Source of the DNA: Pirellula sp. | GTDB lineage: Bacteria > Planctomycetota > Planctomycetia > Pirellulales > PNKZ01 | DNA length: 64,000 nt | Assembly: GCA_013822735.1 (NCBI GenBank) | Contig: PNKZ01000010.1 | Coordinates: forward strand, 1 to 64,000 | Direction of reading: 5' to 3' | Shown here: in pieces, positions 56,000-64,000 of the stretch | Layout: each line of letters opens with the position of its first letter | Position numbering within the stretch: position 1 is the first letter of the stretch | Program-made: the position numbers and the translations under genes | The notes under the pieces: model-generated | The model's input: the letters and a program-made list of their open reading frames with translations, nothing else | The model's database searches: none | What the model was told of the DNA's origin: nothing

Positions 56000-56138
56000 C
56001 TGGAGCCACATTCGATAGAGTTTGGGCGGTGTGCTCGGGCAATTGTAGCGAAGCGCCGGCCGGAATACATTGACGGCTCCCCAGAATCCCGCCGGCCCTT
56101 TCTCGCCGCTGTTCCTCCCACTCCGAGACGCCCCTGCC

Positions 56139-57260
56139 ATGCGCATCGACGCCGTCGAACTGTTTCATGTCGCCATGCCGCTCATCAGCCCTTGGCGCAC
56201 GGCATACGGCGAAGACTTCACCGTCGAATCGGTGCTCATTCGCATGGAGAGCGAAGGGAAATACGCCTGGGCCGAGTCGTCGCCGCTGGCCGCGCCGTGC
56301 TATAGCCCCGAGTGGGCCGGCGGCGTGTTCGCGACGTTGAAGCAGTGGATGGCGCCGGCCGTCGTCGGGAAGTCGGTTTCGTCCGGCGACGACATGCAAG
56401 CCAAGCTCGCCCACTTCAAAGGCAACTCCTTCGCCAAGGCCGCGCTCGACAACGCCTGGTGGGTGCTCGACGCGAAGCTGCAAGAGATGCCGCTCTATCG
56501 CAGGCTGGGCGCCACGCGCAACGGCGTCGACACCGGCGCCGATTTCGGCGTTTGCGACACCATCAACGAATTGCTCGACGACATCGCTCCGGCCCTCGAC
56601 GAAGGCTACAAACGCGTGAAGCTCAAGTTTCGGCCGGGCTGGGATACGGAGATGCTCCGCGCCGTCCGCAATCGCTTCCCCACGCAAACCTTTCACATCG
56701 ACTGCAACAGCGGCTACCGCATCGGCGACTTGGAAATGTTCTGCCGCATCGACGATTTCAACCTCGCGATGATCGAGCAGCCGCTGCAATACGACGACCT
56801 CGTCGACCATGCCCGCCTGCAAGAGACGATCCGCACGCCGATCTGCCTCGACGAAAGCATCTGCTCCGTCGATCGGGCCGTCATGGCGCTCGATCTCGGC
56901 AGCTGCCAGTACATCAATATCAAGCCCGCGCGCGTCGGCGGTCTCACCAACGCGCTCAAGATTCACGACCTCGCGAAAGAGGCGGGAATTCCGTGCTGGG
57001 TCGGCGGCATGCTCGAAAGCGCCGTGGGGCTGCAGATCATGGTCGCCCTGGCGATGCTCGACAACTTCACCTATCCGGCCGATATCTTTCCTTCCAGCCG
57101 TTTCTACACCGACGACCTCGGCAAACCGGAGCTCCAGCTCACGCGCGGCCCCGACGGCAGCCCGCAAGTGAAAGCGTCGGAAGAACCGGGGATCGGCTGC
57201 GAACCGAGCCCGGAACTATTGCAAAAGGTGACGGTCGCACACGCGCGGATCGAAGCGTAG
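56139..57260 (+). CDS. menC: o-Succinylbenzoate synthase-like enolase-superfamily enzyme (MenC)
   Basis: A 373-residue enolase-superfamily protein closest in pattern to MenC/N-acylamino acid racemase. The first catalytic Lys is in YKRVKLKFRPGWD (KxK motif). The metal ligands are Asp in FHIDCNSGYR, Glu in LAMIEQPLQYDDL and Asp/Glu in TPICLDESICS. The second Lys is in YINIKPARVGG. MenC converts SHCHC to o-succinylbenzoate in menaquinone synthesis; N-acylamino acid racemase is the alternative activity. No other men gene is visible, so the symbol is tentative. The start at 56139 (MRIDAVELFHV) matches the family. Confidence 0.82.
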   Translation: MRIDAVELFHVAMPLISPWRTAYGEDFTVESVLIRMESEGKYAWAESSPLAAPCYSPEWAGGVFATLKQWMAPAVVGKSVSSGDDMQAKLAHFKGNSFAKAALDNAWWVLDAKLQEMPLYRRLGATRNGVDTGADFGVCDTINELLDDIAPALDEGYKRVKLKFRPGWDTEMLRAVRNRFPTQTFHIDCNSGYRIGDLEMFCRIDDFNLAMIEQPLQYDDLVDHARLQETIRTPICLDESICSVDRAVMALDLGSCQYINIKPARVGGLTNALKIHDLAKEAGIPCWVGGMLESAVGLQIMVALAMLDNFTYPADIFPSSRFYTDDLGKPELQLTRGPDGSPQVKASEEPGIGCEPSPELLQKVTVAHARIEA

Positions 57261-57286: not shown

Positions 57287-57368
57287 TAGCGAGCGGCGGG
57301 GTTGATCCCCGCCGTCTGAGAATGTGCGTCGCGATCCAGACGGCGGGGATCAACCCCGCCGCTCGCTA
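57287..57368. repeat. Perfect 32-bp inverted repeat
   Basis: The arms at 57287-57318 and 57337-57368 are exact inverses with an 18-nt spacer. Each arm itself contains a nested palindrome GGCGGGG-TTGAT-CCCCGCC. The element begins 26 nt after the menC stop and ends inside the glycosyltransferase gene, whose last residues and stop it encodes. Confidence 0.82.
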
Positions 57369-58630
57369 GGGGACAAGCCTTCGAGCAATTCCGCCGTGTC
57401 GTCCAGCGCCGTCGAACCGGCGATTCTCGCCGCCACATCGCGGCAGGCCTTGGCGACATCCGGCGATTCAAGCAACGATCGCAACGCGGCGGCCAAGCGG
57501 TCGCCGCGGAATCGCCCGGGGTACAACGCCGCGGCCACGCCGAGCCGTTCGGCTCGCTCGATATTGTCGGGCTGGTCGTGCGACATCGGCATGACCACTT
57601 GCGGCACGCCGGCGGCAAACGCTTGCGACATCGTACCGATGCCGCCGTGATTCACGAGCGCCGCGCAGCGCGGGAGCAGCTTTGTGAACGGTGCAAACGG
57701 GCAATGCCGAACCTCGGGAGGCAGATCGGCGGGAATCTGCTCCGTGTGTCGCGTGAGCAACAAGCCGCGGCGGCCGAGCCGACGACAAGCATCGACCGCG
57801 GCCGCAAAGAATTGTTGCCCGAACGTCATCGCGCTGCCGGGCGTAAAGGCAATCGGCGGCGTACCGGCGGCGAGAAACTGTTCCAAGTCCTCGTCGAGCG
57901 GCGTCACGTCGTTTTCATCGTAGAGCGGAAAGCCGGTGAGGCGCACCTGCGGCGGCCAATCGGGCTGCGGCGGCGCGAACCAGGCGGGAAACATGCCGAT
58001 CGTCAAACGCGGCGCGTGGCACCAGCGGTCGAGAATCCGCTTGACCGGCGGCAGTCCGAGCTCGCTGCGGAGCGTATGAAAGTCGGCGCCGACCCAACGA
58101 TCGACGAACAGTCGATCGGCCATCCAGTATTGCGCGCGAATGAGCGCGCGCGGCAGCCACGTTTGCGTCTGCATCCCGCTGATTTTCGGCGGACAGATCA
58201 TGCTCCGCATCATCACCGGCTGCAGATGGATCGACGCGGTCGGCACGCCCAGATGCTCTTCGGCAAAGAGCGCCCCCATCGCTAAGCTCGACGCCCCGAC
58301 GACCGTTTGCCCCCGCACGTAATGCGCGGCGATGAGCTCGTACACCTTCCGCACCATCGGCGCGATGCCGAGTTGAAAGATGGTCTTCGGGCCGCGCGTC
58401 GGATGCCAAATATCCGGATTGGCGAGCATCTCGTGATACTGCTCGGCCGGGAAAAGCTCGATAAATTCCAACCCGGCGCGCTCGATGAGCGGGGCGAAAT
58501 AGCCGCCGGTGACAATCGAAACGCGATGTCCGCGGCGTCGCAAGGTTTGCCCGAGCCCGACGAACGGATGGACGTCGCCGGCGCTGCCGATCGTCGCGAG
58601 CAGGAAGTGCAACGGACGTTCCGCAGACAT
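57350..58630 (-). CDS. Glycosyltransferase, GT1 (UDP-glycosyltransferase-like)
   Basis: A 426-residue GT-B glycosyltransferase of the GT1/MGT-like group, which glycosylates small hydrophobic acceptors such as sterols, macrolides or carotenoids. The N-terminus has LLATIGSAGDVHPFVGLGQT (acceptor side). The C-terminal donor-binding signature is LPRCAALVNHGGIGTMSQAF and AGVPQVVMPMSHDQPDNIER. The last five residues (SERRG) and stop are encoded by the palindromic repeat at 57287-57368. It ends the right-hand lipid gene set, 10 nt after fabI, so it may glycosylate that lipid; this is inference. Confidence 0.85.
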   Translation of the reverse strand: MSAERPLHFLLATIGSAGDVHPFVGLGQTLRRRGHRVSIVTGGYFAPLIERAGLEFIELFPAEQYHEMLANPDIWHPTRGPKTIFQLGIAPMVRKVYELIAAHYVRGQTVVGASSLAMGALFAEEHLGVPTASIHLQPVMMRSMICPPKISGMQTQTWLPRALIRAQYWMADRLFVDRWVGADFHTLRSELGLPPVKRILDRWCHAPRLTIGMFPAWFAPPQPDWPPQVRLTGFPLYDENDVTPLDEDLEQFLAAGTPPIAFTPGSAMTFGQQFFAAAVDACRRLGRRGLLLTRHTEQIPADLPPEVRHCPFAPFTKLLPRCAALVNHGGIGTMSQAFAAGVPQVVMPMSHDQPDNIERAERLGVAAALYPGRFRGDRLAAALRSLLESPDVAKACRDVAARIAGSTALDDTAELLEGLSPSERRG

Positions 58631-58640
58631 AGTGCTCCCG

Positions 58641-59450
58641 CTATTCGCCGCTCATGGCGCGCCGCACGAGGTCGCGGTCGAAGTAGTTCACTTCCATGCC
58701 GGCGTCGACCGTGAGCGTTTGGGCGTTGATGCCGGAGGAACGCGGGCTCAAGAGAAACGCGGCGGTATTGGCGACCTCGCCGGTTTGCACGGCCTGCTTC
58801 CGCAACGTGGCCTGCTCCGCGAAGAGATAGGCATCGACGTAGCCCGGAATGCCCGCCGAGGCCGACGTCTTGAGCAACCCGGCGCCGACCGCATTGAAGC
58901 GAATTTTCGAGAACTGGCTGAACGACTTCGCGAGAAACGCGAGCGACGAATCGAGGGCCGCCTTCACGGGGGCCATGAAGCCGTAGTTTTCCGCCGCCAT
59001 ACGGGTCGTCGAGATCGAGATGGCCACGACCGAAGCGTCGGGCACCAGCGTCTTTTCAAAAGCCTTGGCCAGAGCGATGAGCGAGAAGCAGGAAACGTCG
59101 ACGGAGCGCAGAAACGCGGCCCGGCTCGTGTCGTGAAACGGCTTCGGCCCTTCTTCGTAGTCGGCGAAGGCGATCGAGTGCAGCAGGCCGTGCAGCTTGG
59201 GATGCGCCGCGGTCACTTCGTCGCGCAGCCGATCGATTTCTTCCTGACGCTCGACGTCGCAAATAAAAACGTCGCTCTCGGGAACCAACGGCTCGAGCTG
59301 CGCTTTGCGCTCGGCCGTCCGCACGGCGTACACCACGTTCGCGCCGGAATCTTGCAGCACGCGGGCCGTATGCCAAGCGACGCTCTTCTTGTTGGCGACA
59401 CCGCACACGAGAATCGTCTTATCGGCGAGTTGCAAGAAGTCGGCGGGCAT
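58641..59450 (-). CDS. fabI: Enoyl-ACP reductase, FabI-like SDR
   Basis: A 269-residue short-chain dehydrogenase of the FabI type, reducing trans-2-enoyl-ACP with NAD(P)H. The cofactor site is [20 protein letters not shown]. The catalytic pair Tyr156 and Lys163 falls in [16 protein letters not shown], numbered exactly as in E. coli. The helper tyrosine (Tyr146 in E. coli) is Ile here, in AISISTTRM, so substrate handling or triclosan response may differ. [20 protein letters not shown] also matches the family. It is part of the codirectional FAS-II-like set, 36 nt after fabZ. Confidence 0.9.
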
Positions 59451-59486
59451 CGTGATCGGGCTCGGTGAATGCGAAAGCGTATTCGA

Positions 59487-59930
59487 TTACTTGGCGGGCT
59501 CGGCCATGGTGCAGGCAAACTCGAACCGGGCGGCAACCTGACCGCCGCAACTGACCTTGGCCTTCATGAAATAGGCGTCGGCCAGTTTCTCGACGAGTTC
59601 GACCTCGATGTCGATCGTTTCGCCGGGACGGACCATCCGCTTGAAGCGCACCCCGTCGATGCGCGTCGCCACGGGAACCTTTCCGGCGACGGCGGCCGCT
59701 TGTTTCGACAACAGCACGGCCCCGGCTTGCATCCCGGCTTCACACAGCAGCACGCCGGGCGTCAGCGGGAAGTTCGGGTAGTGGCCGCGGTAGAAATACT
59801 CGTCGCCGGTAAACGTCTTCCGGCAATGGATCGTCTTTTCATCTTGCGCGACGACCGTGTCGATCAAGAGAAACGGGTCGCGATGCGGAATCGCAGCTTG
59901 AATGGCTTCCAACGTCATGGGGTAGCTCAA
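59487..59930 (-). CDS. fabZ: 3-Hydroxyacyl-ACP dehydratase (FabZ-like)
   Basis: A 147-residue hot-dog-fold dehydratase. The catalytic His50 is in YRGHYPNFPLTPGVLLCEAG and Glu64 follows in LLCEAGMQAG. AIPHRDPFLLIDTVV is the N-terminal signature, and RIDGVRFKRMVRPGETIDIE the central strand. It dehydrates 3-hydroxyacyl-ACP. It lies between the first flavoprotein gene and fabI and so probably serves the same pathway. A second Met four residues in is an alternative start. Confidence 0.92.
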   Translation of the reverse strand: MSYPMTLEAIQAAIPHRDPFLLIDTVVAQDEKTIHCRKTFTGDEYFYRGHYPNFPLTPGVLLCEAGMQAGAVLLSKQAAAVAGKVPVATRIDGVRFKRMVRPGETIDIEVELVEKLADAYFMKAKVSCGGQVAARFEFACTMAEPAK

Positions 59931-59966
59931 AGAAGTAAGGCGTCGAGAAGCGGAGAACGGCGAACG

Positions 59967-61412
59967 CTAGGAGGCGGCCGTGACTTCGGCGGAACGACGG
60001 CCGCCGGAGAGGTAGGCGTCGACGTCGTTGGCGACGATCACGCCGTAGTTCACAGCGCCGAGCCAGCCCGACATGATGATGCCGACGCTGCCCGCGTGGT
60101 AAAGCCCGGCGATTTGTTGCGAAATCGCTCGGCTGACGGCCAAGCCTTCGAACTTCGTGCCGAAGCTGGCTCCATCCAGGTGCCGCGTGTAATGCTCGAA
60201 GGTCTTCGGCGTCGAAGCTTCGACGTATTCGAGGCGAGCTCGAATGTCGGGCACATATTTCTCCAACGCGGCAAGCGTGGTTTCGATCAAGTCGCGCTTG
60301 CTTGCGTCGTAGTCTTCGTCGGAGAGGTGGCCCCAATCCGAGAAGTTGGCGTTTGTGCTGGAAACGATCATCGAGCGATCGCTGCCGGGACGCGTGCGCG
60401 GATAGTAGAACGAATAGGTCCGGCTCGTTACATCGCGGCTTAAGAGCGCTTCGGTTTGGAAGCGGGGCGCGGTGGAGCTAAACAGCAAGTCGCCGTTGGC
60501 TTCGTCCAAGTGGTCGCCGGGCTTCAAGGCCATGTAGACTTGGCAGCTGGAGTTGTTCAGCCGCACGGCCCTGGCTTCGTCGATGAACGCTTTGTCGAAG
60601 TGCTCTTCGCCGATGAGCTTGAAGATGGTCGACTTCAGATTGGCGTTGGAAACGATCGTCCGGCAGCGGATCGTGCGACCGTTGATTTCCGCCGACTCGA
60701 CCTTGCCGCGGCGGACGTTGATCCGTTCGACATTGGAGCGAATGCGTAGGTCGACGCCGTTGTGCGCCAGCTCGTCTTTCATGAGGCCGATCAAACGATC
60801 GGTGCCGCCCTCGAAGGTGAAGACTCCCTTCGACATGAAGTTGGAGAAAACGATGCCGTAGCTCACGGCGGGGTCTTCGAGCGTCGAACCGTTGGCGTAG
60901 GTGATCGGCTCCATGAGGAGGCGAATGACGTCGTCGCGTCCCGGGAAGAACTTTTGAAAGAACTGGCCGGTGGTTTGGTTTTGGTCGTCGTAAAAGTTGA
61001 GCGCCCGGGCGGCGTCGAAGAACGCGACGACGGTTTCCGCGGGCACCTTGAACTTTTCGACCAGTTGCCGGGTGAAATCTTCGCGGTCGAACGTCGTCGA
61101 CAGTGAGAACATCGGATTGTCGAAGCGGATGTTCTTAAGCTGGACGATCGAATCGGCGATCTCACGCGTCCAATAACGGCGGCAGCTTTTGATCATGCCG
61201 ATCGGAAAGCCGTGCAGCGAAATATCGAAGATGTGCCCGCCGGCCCGTTTGAACCAGGTGGCCATGCCGCCGAGTTGGTAGTGTTGCTCGAGCAGCAACA
61301 CGCTCCGGCCCGTTTTCGCGAGAGTATTGGCGGCCGTAAGCCCGCCGAGTCCGCTGCCGATGACGATCACGTCGTACTCGTCGCGGCATCCTTTGAGAAA
61401 ATCTTTCGACAT
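59967..61412 (-). CDS. Phytoene-desaturase-like FAD oxidoreductase 1
   Basis: A 481-residue flavoprotein of the CrtI/amine-oxidase superfamily. The N-terminal dinucleotide fold is [20 protein letters not shown] with the Glu in [40 protein letters not shown] and [18 protein letters not shown] are typical of carotenoid desaturases and isomerases. The C-terminal FAD-contact segment is [21 protein letters not shown] chose the ATG at 61412 ([15 protein letters not shown]); the frame is open to 61544. Paired with the next gene and FAS genes, it is likely to desaturate, dehydrogenate or isomerise an acyl or polyene intermediate. Function not proven. Confidence 0.85.
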
Positions 61413-61572
61413 CGGCTTCCAGGCAAAGGCGAGACTGTAGTGGGTGGCTGGGGCCGGAGCCGACGGCGAAGCCCCCGTGGTGAGGAGCAACGCTTCGTTC
61501 TGCTCCGGCAAAGCTGGGGCATCACTACGTTCTGCCCCAGGCACCCGCCGCTACTAAGATCGGAAACAAACT

Positions 61573-62976
61573 CTAGCCGGCTTGCAGCACGTGACGGTTA
61601 GCCATCGAAATGCCGCTCACGAGCGCTCCGATGACGCCGACGTACCCTTGGTCCGTTCCGCACAGATGCAAATTGGGCAAAAACGTACCGCCATCGTACC
61701 GCTTTTTCGGAGCCCCGTAAATCGCCCCGTTTACATGGCCGGTATAGCGCACGACGGTCGTCGGCGAGAACATATCGGTGGCGATGACGTGGTTGCGGAA
61801 GTCGGGGAGATAGCCGACCGCGACCTCGGAGAGCGCGTCGAACCAGCGCGCTTTTTCAGCGCGATACTCGGGCTCCGCGAGCGCTCGCCACCGGTCGAAG
61901 TTTGCTAAGGCGGTGACGCGTACGAGACCGGCCTCGCTGCTGTGGTCTTCACCGAACTGGAAGTTGCCCGGCACGCAAATGACGCCGCTGCGGAGGTCGA
62001 CCATGTCGGCAGGGCGTTGCCAATGGAACTCAGGAGTGGCGTTGAAGAAGACGATCGTGCGATCGCAGCCGAGCGCGTGCGCCGGCTGATCGAGCACCGA
62101 CATGGTTTCGACGAACGACAACCGGCCGGCTTCCGTCGCCACGGCGGGATCTGCGCGATCGCAGAGTTGCATGGTTTCCACGTAGCCGGCGCTGGAGAGA
62201 ATCTCGCGCGCTTCGAGTTGCGTGCCGTCGTCGAGCAGGACGCCCACGGCACGGCCCCCTTCGTGAACGATTTGCTTGACGCCGGCACGGAGGCGGAGCT
62301 CGCCGCCGAGTTCTTTATAGCGACGCGTGAGGAGCTTCAAGATCGGCCGGATGCCTTCCGCCGGGCGCGCGAACCCTTCGCAGAAGATGCTGCGAAACAT
62401 GATGAAGAACTGGGCGACGTCCATGTCTCCCTCGCGCGCGCTGCCGTAGTACATGAGCGGGCAGAGGAGCATCTCGACCAAGAGCGGGTCGGAGAGATAC
62501 TGCGCGAGGAACTTGCGGGCCGAAGCGTCGGCCGAGTCGAGCGGGAGGTCGTCGTAGTCGGGCACGGCCGCGGTGAGGCGATCGAAGCCGTCGATCTGCG
62601 AGGGGAAGGCGCGGGCGATTTCCGTGCGGAGAAGCTCGAAGTCGTTCGAGAAGTCGAGTTGCGTGCCGGGAAAGGCGACGCGGGAGCCGAGTTGCGGCTT
62701 CAGGGCGAGATCGTCCCATGAGAAGCGAAGCTGCCGCAGCAGCCGGGCGAGCGGGCCCCGTTTGGCGCCCTTGGGCGTGTAGTTGGTGACGGCGTGCAGG
62801 CCGACGTCGTAGTTGCGGCCGTCGAGGCGGTAGAACGAGTTGAGGCCGCCGATCGTCGTGTGCCGCTCGAGGATGCAGACGCGCTTCTCGTAGTGCGCGA
62901 GGCGAATGCCTGCGGCGAGGCCCGACATGCCGGCGCCGATGATAATCGCGTCGTACGACTTAGGTTCGGGGTTCAT
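61573..62976 (-). CDS. Phytoene-desaturase-like FAD oxidoreductase 2
   Basis: A 467-residue flavoprotein, distant paralogue of the product at 59967-61412. The FAD-binding fold is SYDAIIIGAGMSGLAAGIRL with ILERHTTIGGLNSFYRLDGR. Central AEGIRPILKLLTRRYKELGG and the SAGYVETMQL segment resemble CrtI-type desaturases. The C-terminal FAD segment is NLHLCGTDQGYVGVIGALVS. It is encoded between the ACP and the first flavoprotein, all on the minus strand. Two such genes beside fabF-ACP-fabZ-fabI recall gene sets proposed for ladderane and other unusual planctomycete lipids. Confidence 0.85.
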   Translation of the reverse strand: MNPEPKSYDAIIIGAGMSGLAAGIRLAHYEKRVCILERHTTIGGLNSFYRLDGRNYDVGLHAVTNYTPKGAKRGPLARLLRQLRFSWDDLALKPQLGSRVAFPGTQLDFSNDFELLRTEIARAFPSQIDGFDRLTAAVPDYDDLPLDSADASARKFLAQYLSDPLLVEMLLCPLMYYGSAREGDMDVAQFFIMFRSIFCEGFARPAEGIRPILKLLTRRYKELGGELRLRAGVKQIVHEGGRAVGVLLDDGTQLEAREILSSAGYVETMQLCDRADPAVATEAGRLSFVETMSVLDQPAHALGCDRTIVFFNATPEFHWQRPADMVDLRSGVICVPGNFQFGEDHSSEAGLVRVTALANFDRWRALAEPEYRAEKARWFDALSEVAVGYLPDFRNHVIATDMFSPTTVVRYTGHVNGAIYGAPKKRYDGGTFLPNLHLCGTDQGYVGVIGALVSGISMANRHVLQAG

Positions 62977-62984
62977 GGCTTAAA

Positions 62985-63086
62985 GGTTCAGGGTTCAAGG
63001 TTCAGCGTTCAGGGTTGACGGAAGATGCCGCGGAGCACGCGACCCTAAACCGCGAACCCTGAACCTTGAACTCCGAACCCTGAACC
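62985..63086. repeat. Tandem-motif inverted repeat (GGTTCAGGGTT type)
   Basis: The left arm at 62985-63016 is built of GGTTCAGGGTTCAAGG-like units. The right arm at 63055-63086 is its near inverse (AACCCTGAACCTTGAAC), with a 38-nt spacer. It fills the gap between the second flavoprotein and ACP genes almost entirely, starting 9 nt before the flavoprotein ATG in transcript sense. It could form a long hairpin in the operon message. Confidence 0.6.
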
Positions 63087-63090
63087 GTTC

Positions 63091-63351
63091 TTAAACCTTT
63101 TGCAGATCGCGCATGCGGGGTTCGAGATATTCGACCGTGCTTTGCATGCTGCGGAGATGCAAATAGTCTTCCTCGGGAATTTGCACGCGGTAGCGCTTCC
63201 GCAACTCCATCACGATGTCGAGGAAGTCCATGCTGTCGAGCTGCAATTGCTCGCGAAACGCCACGTCGTCCTTGAGCGTTCCGAGATCGTCGTCCGGCGC
63301 AATGTCCGAGAGAATGTCGAGAATCGTTTCCTTGATATCGTCTTTCGTCAT
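63091..63351 (-). CDS. Acyl carrier protein
   Basis: An 86-residue acyl carrier protein. The phosphopantetheine site is Ser40 in LQLDSMDFLDIVMELRKRY, and the four-helix pattern (IKETILDILSDIAPDDDLGT) fits. DSMD instead of the DSLD common in housekeeping AcpP suggests a specialised carrier. It is encoded between fabF and the two flavoproteins, so it most likely carries the intermediates of that cluster. Confidence 0.88.
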   Translation of the reverse strand: MTKDDIKETILDILSDIAPDDDLGTLKDDVAFREQLQLDSMDFLDIVMELRKRYRVQIPEEDYLHLRSMQSTVEYLEPRMRDLQKV

Positions 63352-63476
63352 TGCGTCGAGATTCCTAATCGCTTTCCTAGGGCTTCGTGTTTCGCGGTTG
63401 GCCGCAGGCCGGATCGGATGGGGCCTGCGGACGGCGAGCGGATGGCCCGCGTTGCTAAATGTTCCAAGTTGCTAAA

Positions 63477-64000
63477 TCAGATCTTCTTGATGATGACGGC
63501 CGAGTTGATACCCAACATGCCGAACGAATTATTGAGAATATACTCGACTTGAACACCCTTTTTCGGTTCGTTTCGGACAAGTCCCTCCAGAGCGCACTCC
63601 GGATCGGGGTCGTCGATGTTGATGGTAGCGTGGCAGGTGTGGTCGTGAAAACTAGGCAAATTGCCTGCTAATTCCAAAGCTCCGGCCGCGCCCATGGCAT
63701 GGCCGATGAAGCTTTTGGTGTTGTTAAAGAGGGTGTTCGGATTGTTCTGAAACACCTTGCGTAAAGCCGTAGCCTCTTGAACGTCGCCGCCGGAAGTACC
63801 TGTCGCGTGCGTGCTGACGATGTCGATTTGCTCCGGCCGAAGGTTCGCGAACTTCAGGGCCTTCTGCATGCACTCGGCCTGACGATTGGCGTCGGGCATG
63901 ACGAAATCACCGGCGTCGGAGTTCATGGCGTAGCCGACGAGCTCGCCGTGGATTTTGGCGCCGCGACGTTGGGCGTCGTCGAGACGTTCGAGGACGTAAA
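63477..64000 (-). CDS. fabF: 3-Oxoacyl-ACP synthase (FabF-like), 5' part outside window
   Basis: The C-terminal 173 residues of a ketosynthase; reading frame continues to the window edge (YVLERLDDAQRRGAKIHGEL), so the gene starts beyond 64000. The first catalytic His is in IVSTHATGTSGGDVQEATAL and the second in FNNTKSFIGHAMGAAGALEL. GVQVEYILNNSFGMLGINS is the C-terminal motif with the Asn-Ser-Phe-Gly turn of KAS II. It would condense malonyl-ACP with acyl-ACP in the cluster. The Cys nucleophile lies in the missing part. A hairpin (CCGCAGGCC / GGCCTGCGG, 63402-63430) separates it from ACP. Confidence 0.9.
   Translation of the reverse strand, partial: YVLERLDDAQRRGAKIHGELVGYAMNSDAGDFVMPDANRQAECMQKALKFANLRPEQIDIVSTHATGTSGGDVQEATALRKVFQNNPNTLFNNTKSFIGHAMGAAGALELAGNLPSFHDHTCHATINIDDPDPECALEGLVRNEPKKGVQVEYILNNSFGMLGINSAVIIKKI

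Follow-up and report, generated by a model that had tools for sequence, protein, structure and literature searches.

The bacterial sources of polyunsaturated acyl chains described so far are for the most part large Pfa synthases and oxygen-dependent desaturases. The subject of this report is a gene cluster at the end of a 64,000-nucleotide stretch of a Pirellula sp. genome (GenBank assembly GCA_013822735.1, contig PNKZ01000010.1, positions 1 to 64,000; hereafter the window). It encodes enzymes of a type II fatty acid synthase (FAS), an acyl carrier protein (ACP) and two flavoproteins of the CrtI fold, here designated CrtIA and CrtIB. Among the closest described systems are bacteria in which a Pfa synthase delivers unsaturated chains to OleABCD (Shewanella, Photobacterium, Geobacter bemidjiensis); the chain that OleA condenses in these bacteria is predicted to be 16:4(n-3), according to the sections cited (PMC6463001, PMC4882568). 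The OleABCD enzymes are common to both systems, and ketosynthase, ACP, ketoreductase, dehydratase and enoyl reductase functions are needed in both. The Pfa proteins are large and multidomain, whereas here each step would have a separate small protein, with double bonds placed by the two flavoproteins or by FabZ.

Similar parts are described for the candidate ladderane clusters of anammox bacteria (kuste3603-3608, kuste3336 and others), in which FabF, ACP, FabZ and CrtI-fold flavoproteins lie together, FabF directly before a flavoprotein, along with radical S-adenosylmethionine (radical-SAM) genes (parts of PMC2649909 and PMC4790861). The same kinds of parts, with SAM-enzyme genes included, form FAS clusters with phytoene-dehydrogenase-like genes in Desulfotalea psychrophila. 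The relevant passages of PMC2649909 attribute C31:8 and C31:9 hydrocarbons to this bacterium, give no other known polyunsaturated fatty acid (PUFA) pathway for it, and cite planctomycetes as producers of such C31 polyunsaturated hydrocarbons. Clusters resembling pfa were listed for two planctomycetes, Gemmata obscuriglobus and Planctomyces limnophilus, in the part of a 2011 survey used here (PMC3098273).

The Pirellula cluster is interpreted here as a dedicated type II FAS that would make unsaturated, most likely polyunsaturated, acyl thioesters for OleABCD and would replace the Pfa synthase (estimated probability about 0.72). Its coupling to OleABCD is stated with high confidence, and a polyunsaturated product is considered probable. 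The genes, their synteny with ole genes, the co-occurrence with OleA and the near exclusion of PfaA are direct observations; the product, the pattern of its double bonds and the reaction of the flavoproteins are inferred. No description of the cluster or of its link to ole genes was found in the open-licence literature searched.

The cluster and the adjoining ole genes

The window comprises positions 1-64000 of the 207 kb contig C10; the genome of 6.88 Mb is 99% complete and consists of 38 contigs. Seven named genes, all with Pfam support, run codirectionally on the minus strand from 64000 to 57350 with gaps of 10 to ~160 bp (Table 1), as reported in the first-pass annotation. Extension of the sequence past 64000 showed that the run goes on in the same direction: the remainder of the FabF gene is followed by OleD (contig positions 64924-65898) and OleC (65895-67595), which overlap by 4 bp. 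OleC exceeded the cut-off of PRK09274 (678 versus 478 bits); olefin beta-lactone synthetase models came next with 539 and 503 bits, short of their respective cut-offs (900 and 850). The OleD frame is intact and 71% identical to a homologue (locus L091) for which OleD reductase models were the best matches (386 and 356 bits, with the cut-off of 580 not reached). OleA is encoded at C27:50837-51880 and scored above the PRK09258 cut-off; the NAC motif with the active-site Cys was present in all 44 OleA sequences compared. OleB lies at C10:176529-177425 and is 57% identical to a Blastopirellula homologue. With OleA on C27, OleB on C10, and OleC and OleD beside the cluster, a full OleABCD set is therefore present in the genome, and the cluster thus probably supplies OleABCD with chains for head-to-head hydrocarbon synthesis and is not a ladderane set. 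This reading required the sequence past 64000. Two open reading frames of 137 and 180 aa upstream of FabF were rejected as spurious; the 180-aa frame and most of the 137-aa frame overlie the intact OleD gene.

Ten ketosynthase-like matches were detected in the genome, and the two above the FabF cut-off of 493.75 bits lie elsewhere, on C1 (622 bits) and C17 (496.9 bits). The cluster FabF reached 305.6 bits and is not the main copy; it is a divergent paralogue with an intact Cys-His-His triad. The cluster thus looks dedicated to an unsaturated lipid, as had been suggested from the window, and its genes are not the only housekeeping FAS copies.

Conservation of gene order in Planctomycetota

Gene order was mapped in 121 loci, all chosen for the presence of CrtIA or CrtIB: the locus itself, 40 loci from a genome sample and 80 from named records, the latter being the best 80 of at least 584 relatives. 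CrtIA was found in 116 of the 121. Among CrtIA loci with 2.5 kb or more of upstream sequence, 80 of 103 showed the order FabF-ACP-CrtIA. CrtIA-CrtIB was seen in 55 of the 101 CrtIA loci that have 2.5 kb or more downstream, and CrtIA-CrtIB-(FabG)-FabZ-FabI in 42 of the 88 that have 5 kb or more; FabG is part of the operon in some lineages. Chance is far from sufficient to explain this conserved arrangement. Organisms named as CrtIA carriers include Rhodopirellula baltica, an uncultured Gimesia, a Blastopirellula, Bythopirellula polymerisocia, Adhaeretor mobilis and Thalassoglobus neptunius.

One or more ole genes were present in 29 of the 61 loci having at least 7 kb on both sides. In four loci (L079, L081, L083, L084), which belong to three families other than that of the window, all four ole genes adjoin FabF-ACP-CrtIA-CrtIB-FabZ-FabI, with the ole genes oppositely oriented in L081. 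Another locus, L089, holds FabF-ACP-CrtIA-CrtIB-FabG-FabZ-FabI-OleA-OleB-OleC in one run. The start of OleA was located no more than 10.2 kb from CrtIA in 27 of 66 CrtIA genomes.

A separate observation concerns L124, a metagenome-assembled genome record labelled Candidatus Kuenenia stuttgartiensis, which carries FabF-ACP-CrtIA of the planctomycete type, with a CrtIA 66% identical to a Gimesia-like query. The label is doubtful, probably through wrong labelling or contamination, and L124 was left out of the evidence.

Co-occurrence with OleA and near exclusion of PfaA

An even set of 294 Planctomycetota genomes was used as the phylum sample. CrtIA and CrtIB were each present in 66 genomes and together in 65, i.e., 65 of the 67 genomes with either flavoprotein hold both; G282 and G273, which hold one flavoprotein each, have a completeness of 54% and 80%. 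For the CrtIA count, 67 genomes matched and one (G123) was set aside as a weak paralogue (E 1.1e-29; next weakest genome 7.0e-89). OleA was above cut-off in 107 genomes, including all 66 with CrtIA, and matched none of 14 control genomes; 41 of the OleA genomes contain neither flavoprotein.

The flavoprotein pair and PfaA nearly exclude each other. The PfaA test covered 79 of the 107 OleA genomes, namely all 41 without the pair and 38 of the 66 with CrtIA. PfaA was above the curated cut-off in 32 of the 41 genomes without the pair versus 0 of the 38 with it. A line at E ≤ 1e-189, chosen once the values were known (G090 stands at 4.7e-190), gave 39 of 41 versus 1 of 38. The window genome has no PfaA above the TIGR02813 cut-off of 1010.1 bits; its best match, 336 bits, lies inside a combined polyketide synthase (PKS) and nonribosomal peptide synthetase (NRPS) frame. 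OleA starts 10.7 to 20.5 kb away from PfaA in 20 of the 41 genomes that hold OleA but neither flavoprotein. Fisher tests of co-occurrence gave extreme values. Better evidence is the swap within families: 14 genomes of family f4 have the pair and two have Pfa, and in family f49 the pair is present in one genome and Pfa in four.

An OleA tree was calculated from 44 sequences, comprising 16 from PfaA genomes, 27 from flavoprotein carriers and L267, with L115 left out. A branch of length 0.71 (support 100/100) set off the 16 OleA from PfaA genomes, among them both f4 sequences from Pfa genomes, which thus stand away from the three f4 rows with flavoproteins. Such a split by supplier is expected if OleA is adapted to the feeding chain or to the carrier protein. 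The 27 carrier rows do not form one unbroken group because the long-branched L267, which has neither system, falls among them. L267, from genome G003, is a divergent OleA homologue (branch 1.68), and its genome is without the flavoprotein pair and without a strong PfaA match.

The product could instead be a conjugated polyene or a PUFA of membrane lipids, with the ole genes as one of several users. Conjugated polyenes are the products of type II synthases that leave out enoyl reduction, and in many carriers the ole genes were not seen adjoining the cluster. A FabI-like reductase and FabZ nevertheless recur in the operon, and OleA is present in 66 of 66 CrtIA genomes, which a general membrane role would not require; this alternative is considered unlikely.

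Flavoproteins and proposed pathway

CrtIA matched best to the NCBIfam model carot_isom (78.3 bits; cut-off 586.9) and CrtIB to desat_CrtD (94.6 bits; cut-off 549.7) and carot_isom (94.1 bits), all far below the cut-offs; neither protein was above any curated carotenoid desaturase cut-off. In 25 named-record loci, CrtIB was 65-77% identical. Structure models with a mean predicted local distance difference test (pLDDT) score of 87 for CrtIA and 85 for CrtIB were compared with solved folds, of which 4rep was closest to both (CrtIA: Z 30.4, root mean square deviation (rmsd) 3.6, 433 residues aligned; CrtIB: Z 31.0, rmsd 3.3, 433 aligned). The fatty-acid isomerase 2b9w was aligned with Z 22.0, rmsd 4.0 and 390 residues, and with Z 22.2, rmsd 4.1 and 383 residues, and many amine oxidases score at least as high. 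Isomerase and desaturase were not told apart by fold comparison.

The proteins thus share the fold (Z 22 to 31 with entries such as 4rep and 4dgk) and distant sequence similarity with CrtI, CrtD and carotenoid isomerase. They differ from these in gene context and in scores far below the family cut-offs. Carotenoid desaturases sitting by chance beside fatty-acid genes would account for the fold and for the weak family matches, but this explanation is highly improbable: the scores are a small fraction of the cut-offs (94.6 versus 549.7 bits), and the gene order relative to FabF and ACP is retained from family to family. Squalene/phytoene synthase (PF00494) was not adjacent to the cluster; its only matches in the genome were at C1:562293-563926, on another contig, where another flavoprotein, of the amine-oxidase family, lies directly behind them. 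For the Kuenenia enzymes, the section consulted of PMC4790861 reports that they were unable to replace CrtI in lycopene synthesis.

The following pathway is proposed. FabF would extend the chain on the ACP of the cluster, and a ketoreductase FabG (in the window genome presumably a copy elsewhere), FabZ and the FabI-like reductase would complete each cycle. The two CrtI-fold flavoproteins would place or keep cis double bonds, so that some cycles would end with the double bond retained and not with full reduction. OleA would then join two chains head to head. OleD would reduce the joined product, OleC would turn it into a beta-lactone and OleB would decarboxylate the lactone, leaving a long-chain polyene. 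The end product may be a C31:9 hydrocarbon, as in Pfa+Ole bacteria.

A more specific version is put forward tentatively, at clearly less than even odds. CrtIA and CrtIB would be two enoyl-ACP isomerases, one converting trans-2 to cis-3 and the other trans-2 to cis-2, and in alternation with full reduction they would yield 16:4(n-3) on the cluster ACP. The cluster would then be an oxygen-independent type II PUFA synthase, unrelated to Pfa, that feeds OleA. This version follows from the match of two flavoproteins to two isomerisations: according to the review section cited (PMC4882568), both trans-2 to cis-2 and trans-2 to cis-3 isomerisation are presumed necessary for the double bonds, and in Pfa the dehydratase domains are held to carry them out. 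Counted from the omega end, the cis-3 bonds would be formed at C6 and C12 and the cis-2 bonds at C8 and C14.

Somewhat short of even odds is the possibility that CrtIA and CrtIB are dehydrogenases, i.e., true desaturases that oxidise saturated or monounsaturated acyl-ACP and not redox-neutral isomerases, with the cluster still feeding OleABCD. Among solved folds, CrtI-type desaturases come closest, with 4rep at the head, but carotenoid isomerase, a redox-neutral enzyme, is among the closest named sequence families. The full FAS reduction cycle alongside fits retention of double bonds equally well as later oxidation. Rattray et al., in the passages cited (PMC2649909), put forward oxidative desaturation as the reaction of the Kuenenia and Desulfotalea enzymes.

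Several points weigh against a cluster that feeds OleABCD in place of Pfa. CrtIB was not found directly after CrtIA in 46 of the 101 loci with room downstream, OleA was not within ~10 kb of CrtIA in 39 of 66 genomes, and FabG is absent from the operon of the window genome. The PfaA search at a loose threshold also picked up matches that look like generic PKS (E 1e-80 to 1e-111) in several genomes with the pair, that of the window among them, and at the same level in 3 of 14 controls. One genome of the 38 tested with the pair, G196, has a PfaA-like match beyond generic PKS (2.3e-194, below cut-off), and two OleA genomes, G003 and G253, lack both the pair and PfaA at the thresholds used. The Fisher p-values overstate the independent evidence because the genomes are related, and clear contrasts within families are few (f4, f49). 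The cited part of a review states that all producers of C31:9 also make eicosapentaenoic or docosahexaenoic acid (PMC4882568). The results are compatible with isomerases as well as desaturases, and with a methylene-interrupted as well as a conjugated product.

Comparison with ladderane clusters of anammox bacteria

A cyclobutane lipid pathway of the ladderane kind in a planctomycete outside the anammox group, to which the first-pass annotation had pointed, would agree with the similar parts described by Rattray et al. (passages of PMC2649909) and with the position of FabF directly before a CrtI-fold flavoprotein in genomes taken as anammox, where most of these flavoproteins lie directly behind a FabF. 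Thirteen genomes, taken as anammox from a hydrazine-synthase domain match and family, were searched with the CrtIA profile, and partial weak matches only were obtained in 12 of them (best 2.8e-20). The FabF proteins beside these flavoproteins are ~28-31% identical over near-full length to the cluster FabF. In a flavoprotein tree of 62 rows, CrtIA (97/87), CrtIB (100/100) and the 11 flavoproteins from genomes taken as anammox (100/99) formed three separate groups, subject to a long-branch warning. For this tree, 24 CrtIA and 23 CrtIB rows, the window's own included, were used out of 115 and 61 others available; the labels 'anx3607' and 'anx3336' were based on gene context and length and not on comparison with Kuenenia proteins.

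OleA was above cut-off in 0 of 17 genomes taken as anammox, and ole genes accompany the cluster here. Radical-SAM genes, present in the anammox candidate clusters, gave no family match among 14 C10 proteins in and around the cluster that were scanned with Pfam (FabF twice and two spurious frames included, OleD not scanned); the screen covered this locus. Membership of the ladderane set is consequently not supported, given the separate clade and the missing radical-SAM match among these 14 proteins, and a ladderane-like pathway is given very little probability. The likeness in kinds of parts (FabF, ACP, FabZ, CrtI-like enzymes) stands as an analogy; as far as the tree shows, the proteins would not be orthologues. 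The ladderane-, aryl-polyene- or glycolipid-like reading of the first-pass annotation is most likely to be corrected to a supply arm of OleABCD that replaces the Pfa synthase.

In four further genomes (G145, G160, G277, G290), the hydrazine-synthase alpha domain PF18582 gave at least 16 matches per genome, mostly in large open frames. These genomes are probably not anammox.

Cluster genes and neighbouring features

The coordinates of the cluster genes are given in Table 1.

Table 1. Genes of the cluster, in window positions and in the order of transcription
Gene product	Position	Strand	Pfam	Remarks
FabF-type ketosynthase, C-terminal part (last 173 residues)	63477..64000	-		whole gene to contig 64721, 414 aa
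Acyl carrier protein (ACP), DSM phosphopantetheine site	63091..63351	-	PF00550	
CrtIA, CrtI/carotenoid-isomerase-fold flavoprotein, 467 aa	61573..62976	-	PF01593	
CrtIB, second CrtI-fold flavoprotein, ~481 aa	59967..61412	-	PF01593	
FabZ-type 3-hydroxyacyl-ACP dehydratase, His + Glu kept	59487..59930	-	PF07977	
FabI-like enoyl-ACP reductase, Tyr-x6-Lys	58641..59450	-	PF13561	
GT1-type glycosyltransferase	57350..58630	-	PF06722/PF03033	

Active-site residues are conserved. Cys167, His305 and His341 of FabF are invariant in the 92 sequences aligned, the window's own included, and 91 of these have Lys336. The serine site DS[LMV] of the ACP was kept in 60 of 60 rows and Tyr-x6-Lys of the FabI-like reductase in 72 of 72 (overlapping loci of one genome being counted apart in both cases), and both catalytic motifs of FabZ were found in 62 of 64 distinct sequences. 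FabZ scored 111.4 bits against PRK00006, slightly below the cut-off of 113, and the FabI-like reductase reached at most 183.5 bits with FabI models, below their cut-offs. The start of CrtIB at ~61412 is suggested by homologues (consensus MPKDFLKG); the listed frame begins at 61544 with GTG.

A GT1 gene turned up in just 3 of the 121 mapped loci, and each of these belongs to the window's genus. It is probably a neighbour and not part of the conserved system, and the earlier idea of a glycosylated product was dropped because of this restriction. A plus-strand gene at 56070-57260, facing the cluster, presumably encodes a member of the enolase superfamily, judging by its sequence. Between ACP and CrtIA (62981-63086) lies an inverted-repeat tract of GGTTCAGGGTTC/GAACCCTGAACC-like units; at least 18 further short matches to such units were located at 14 other places in the genome, among the 40 of 161 candidates that were scored.

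Farther upstream, past OleC, a RimK-like ATP-grasp gene, a methenyl-tetrahydromethanopterin cyclohydrolase gene and a PKS-NRPS open frame of 5133 residues follow. The first two (L009:10595-12525) stand directly before OleC, and both occur together in this position in 11 of 121 loci; one-carbon (C1) genes are thereby linked with the hydrocarbon cluster by position beside OleC. The PKS-NRPS frame extends over L009:12509-20000 and L010:1-7898 (C10:69509-84898), and its 3' end overlaps the cyclohydrolase gene. Its scanned part contains ketoreductase, condensation, adenylation, carrier and terminal reductase domains, with a ketosynthase match nearer the 5' end.

Implications

A route of small enzymes that swaps with Pfa before OleA would explain how polyunsaturated hydrocarbons might arise in planctomycetes without pfa. 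CrtI-fold proteins would thereby gain a role in acting on acyl chains, and the route would offer a tractable model for the chemistry of CrtI-like enzymes in ladderane-forming anammox bacteria.

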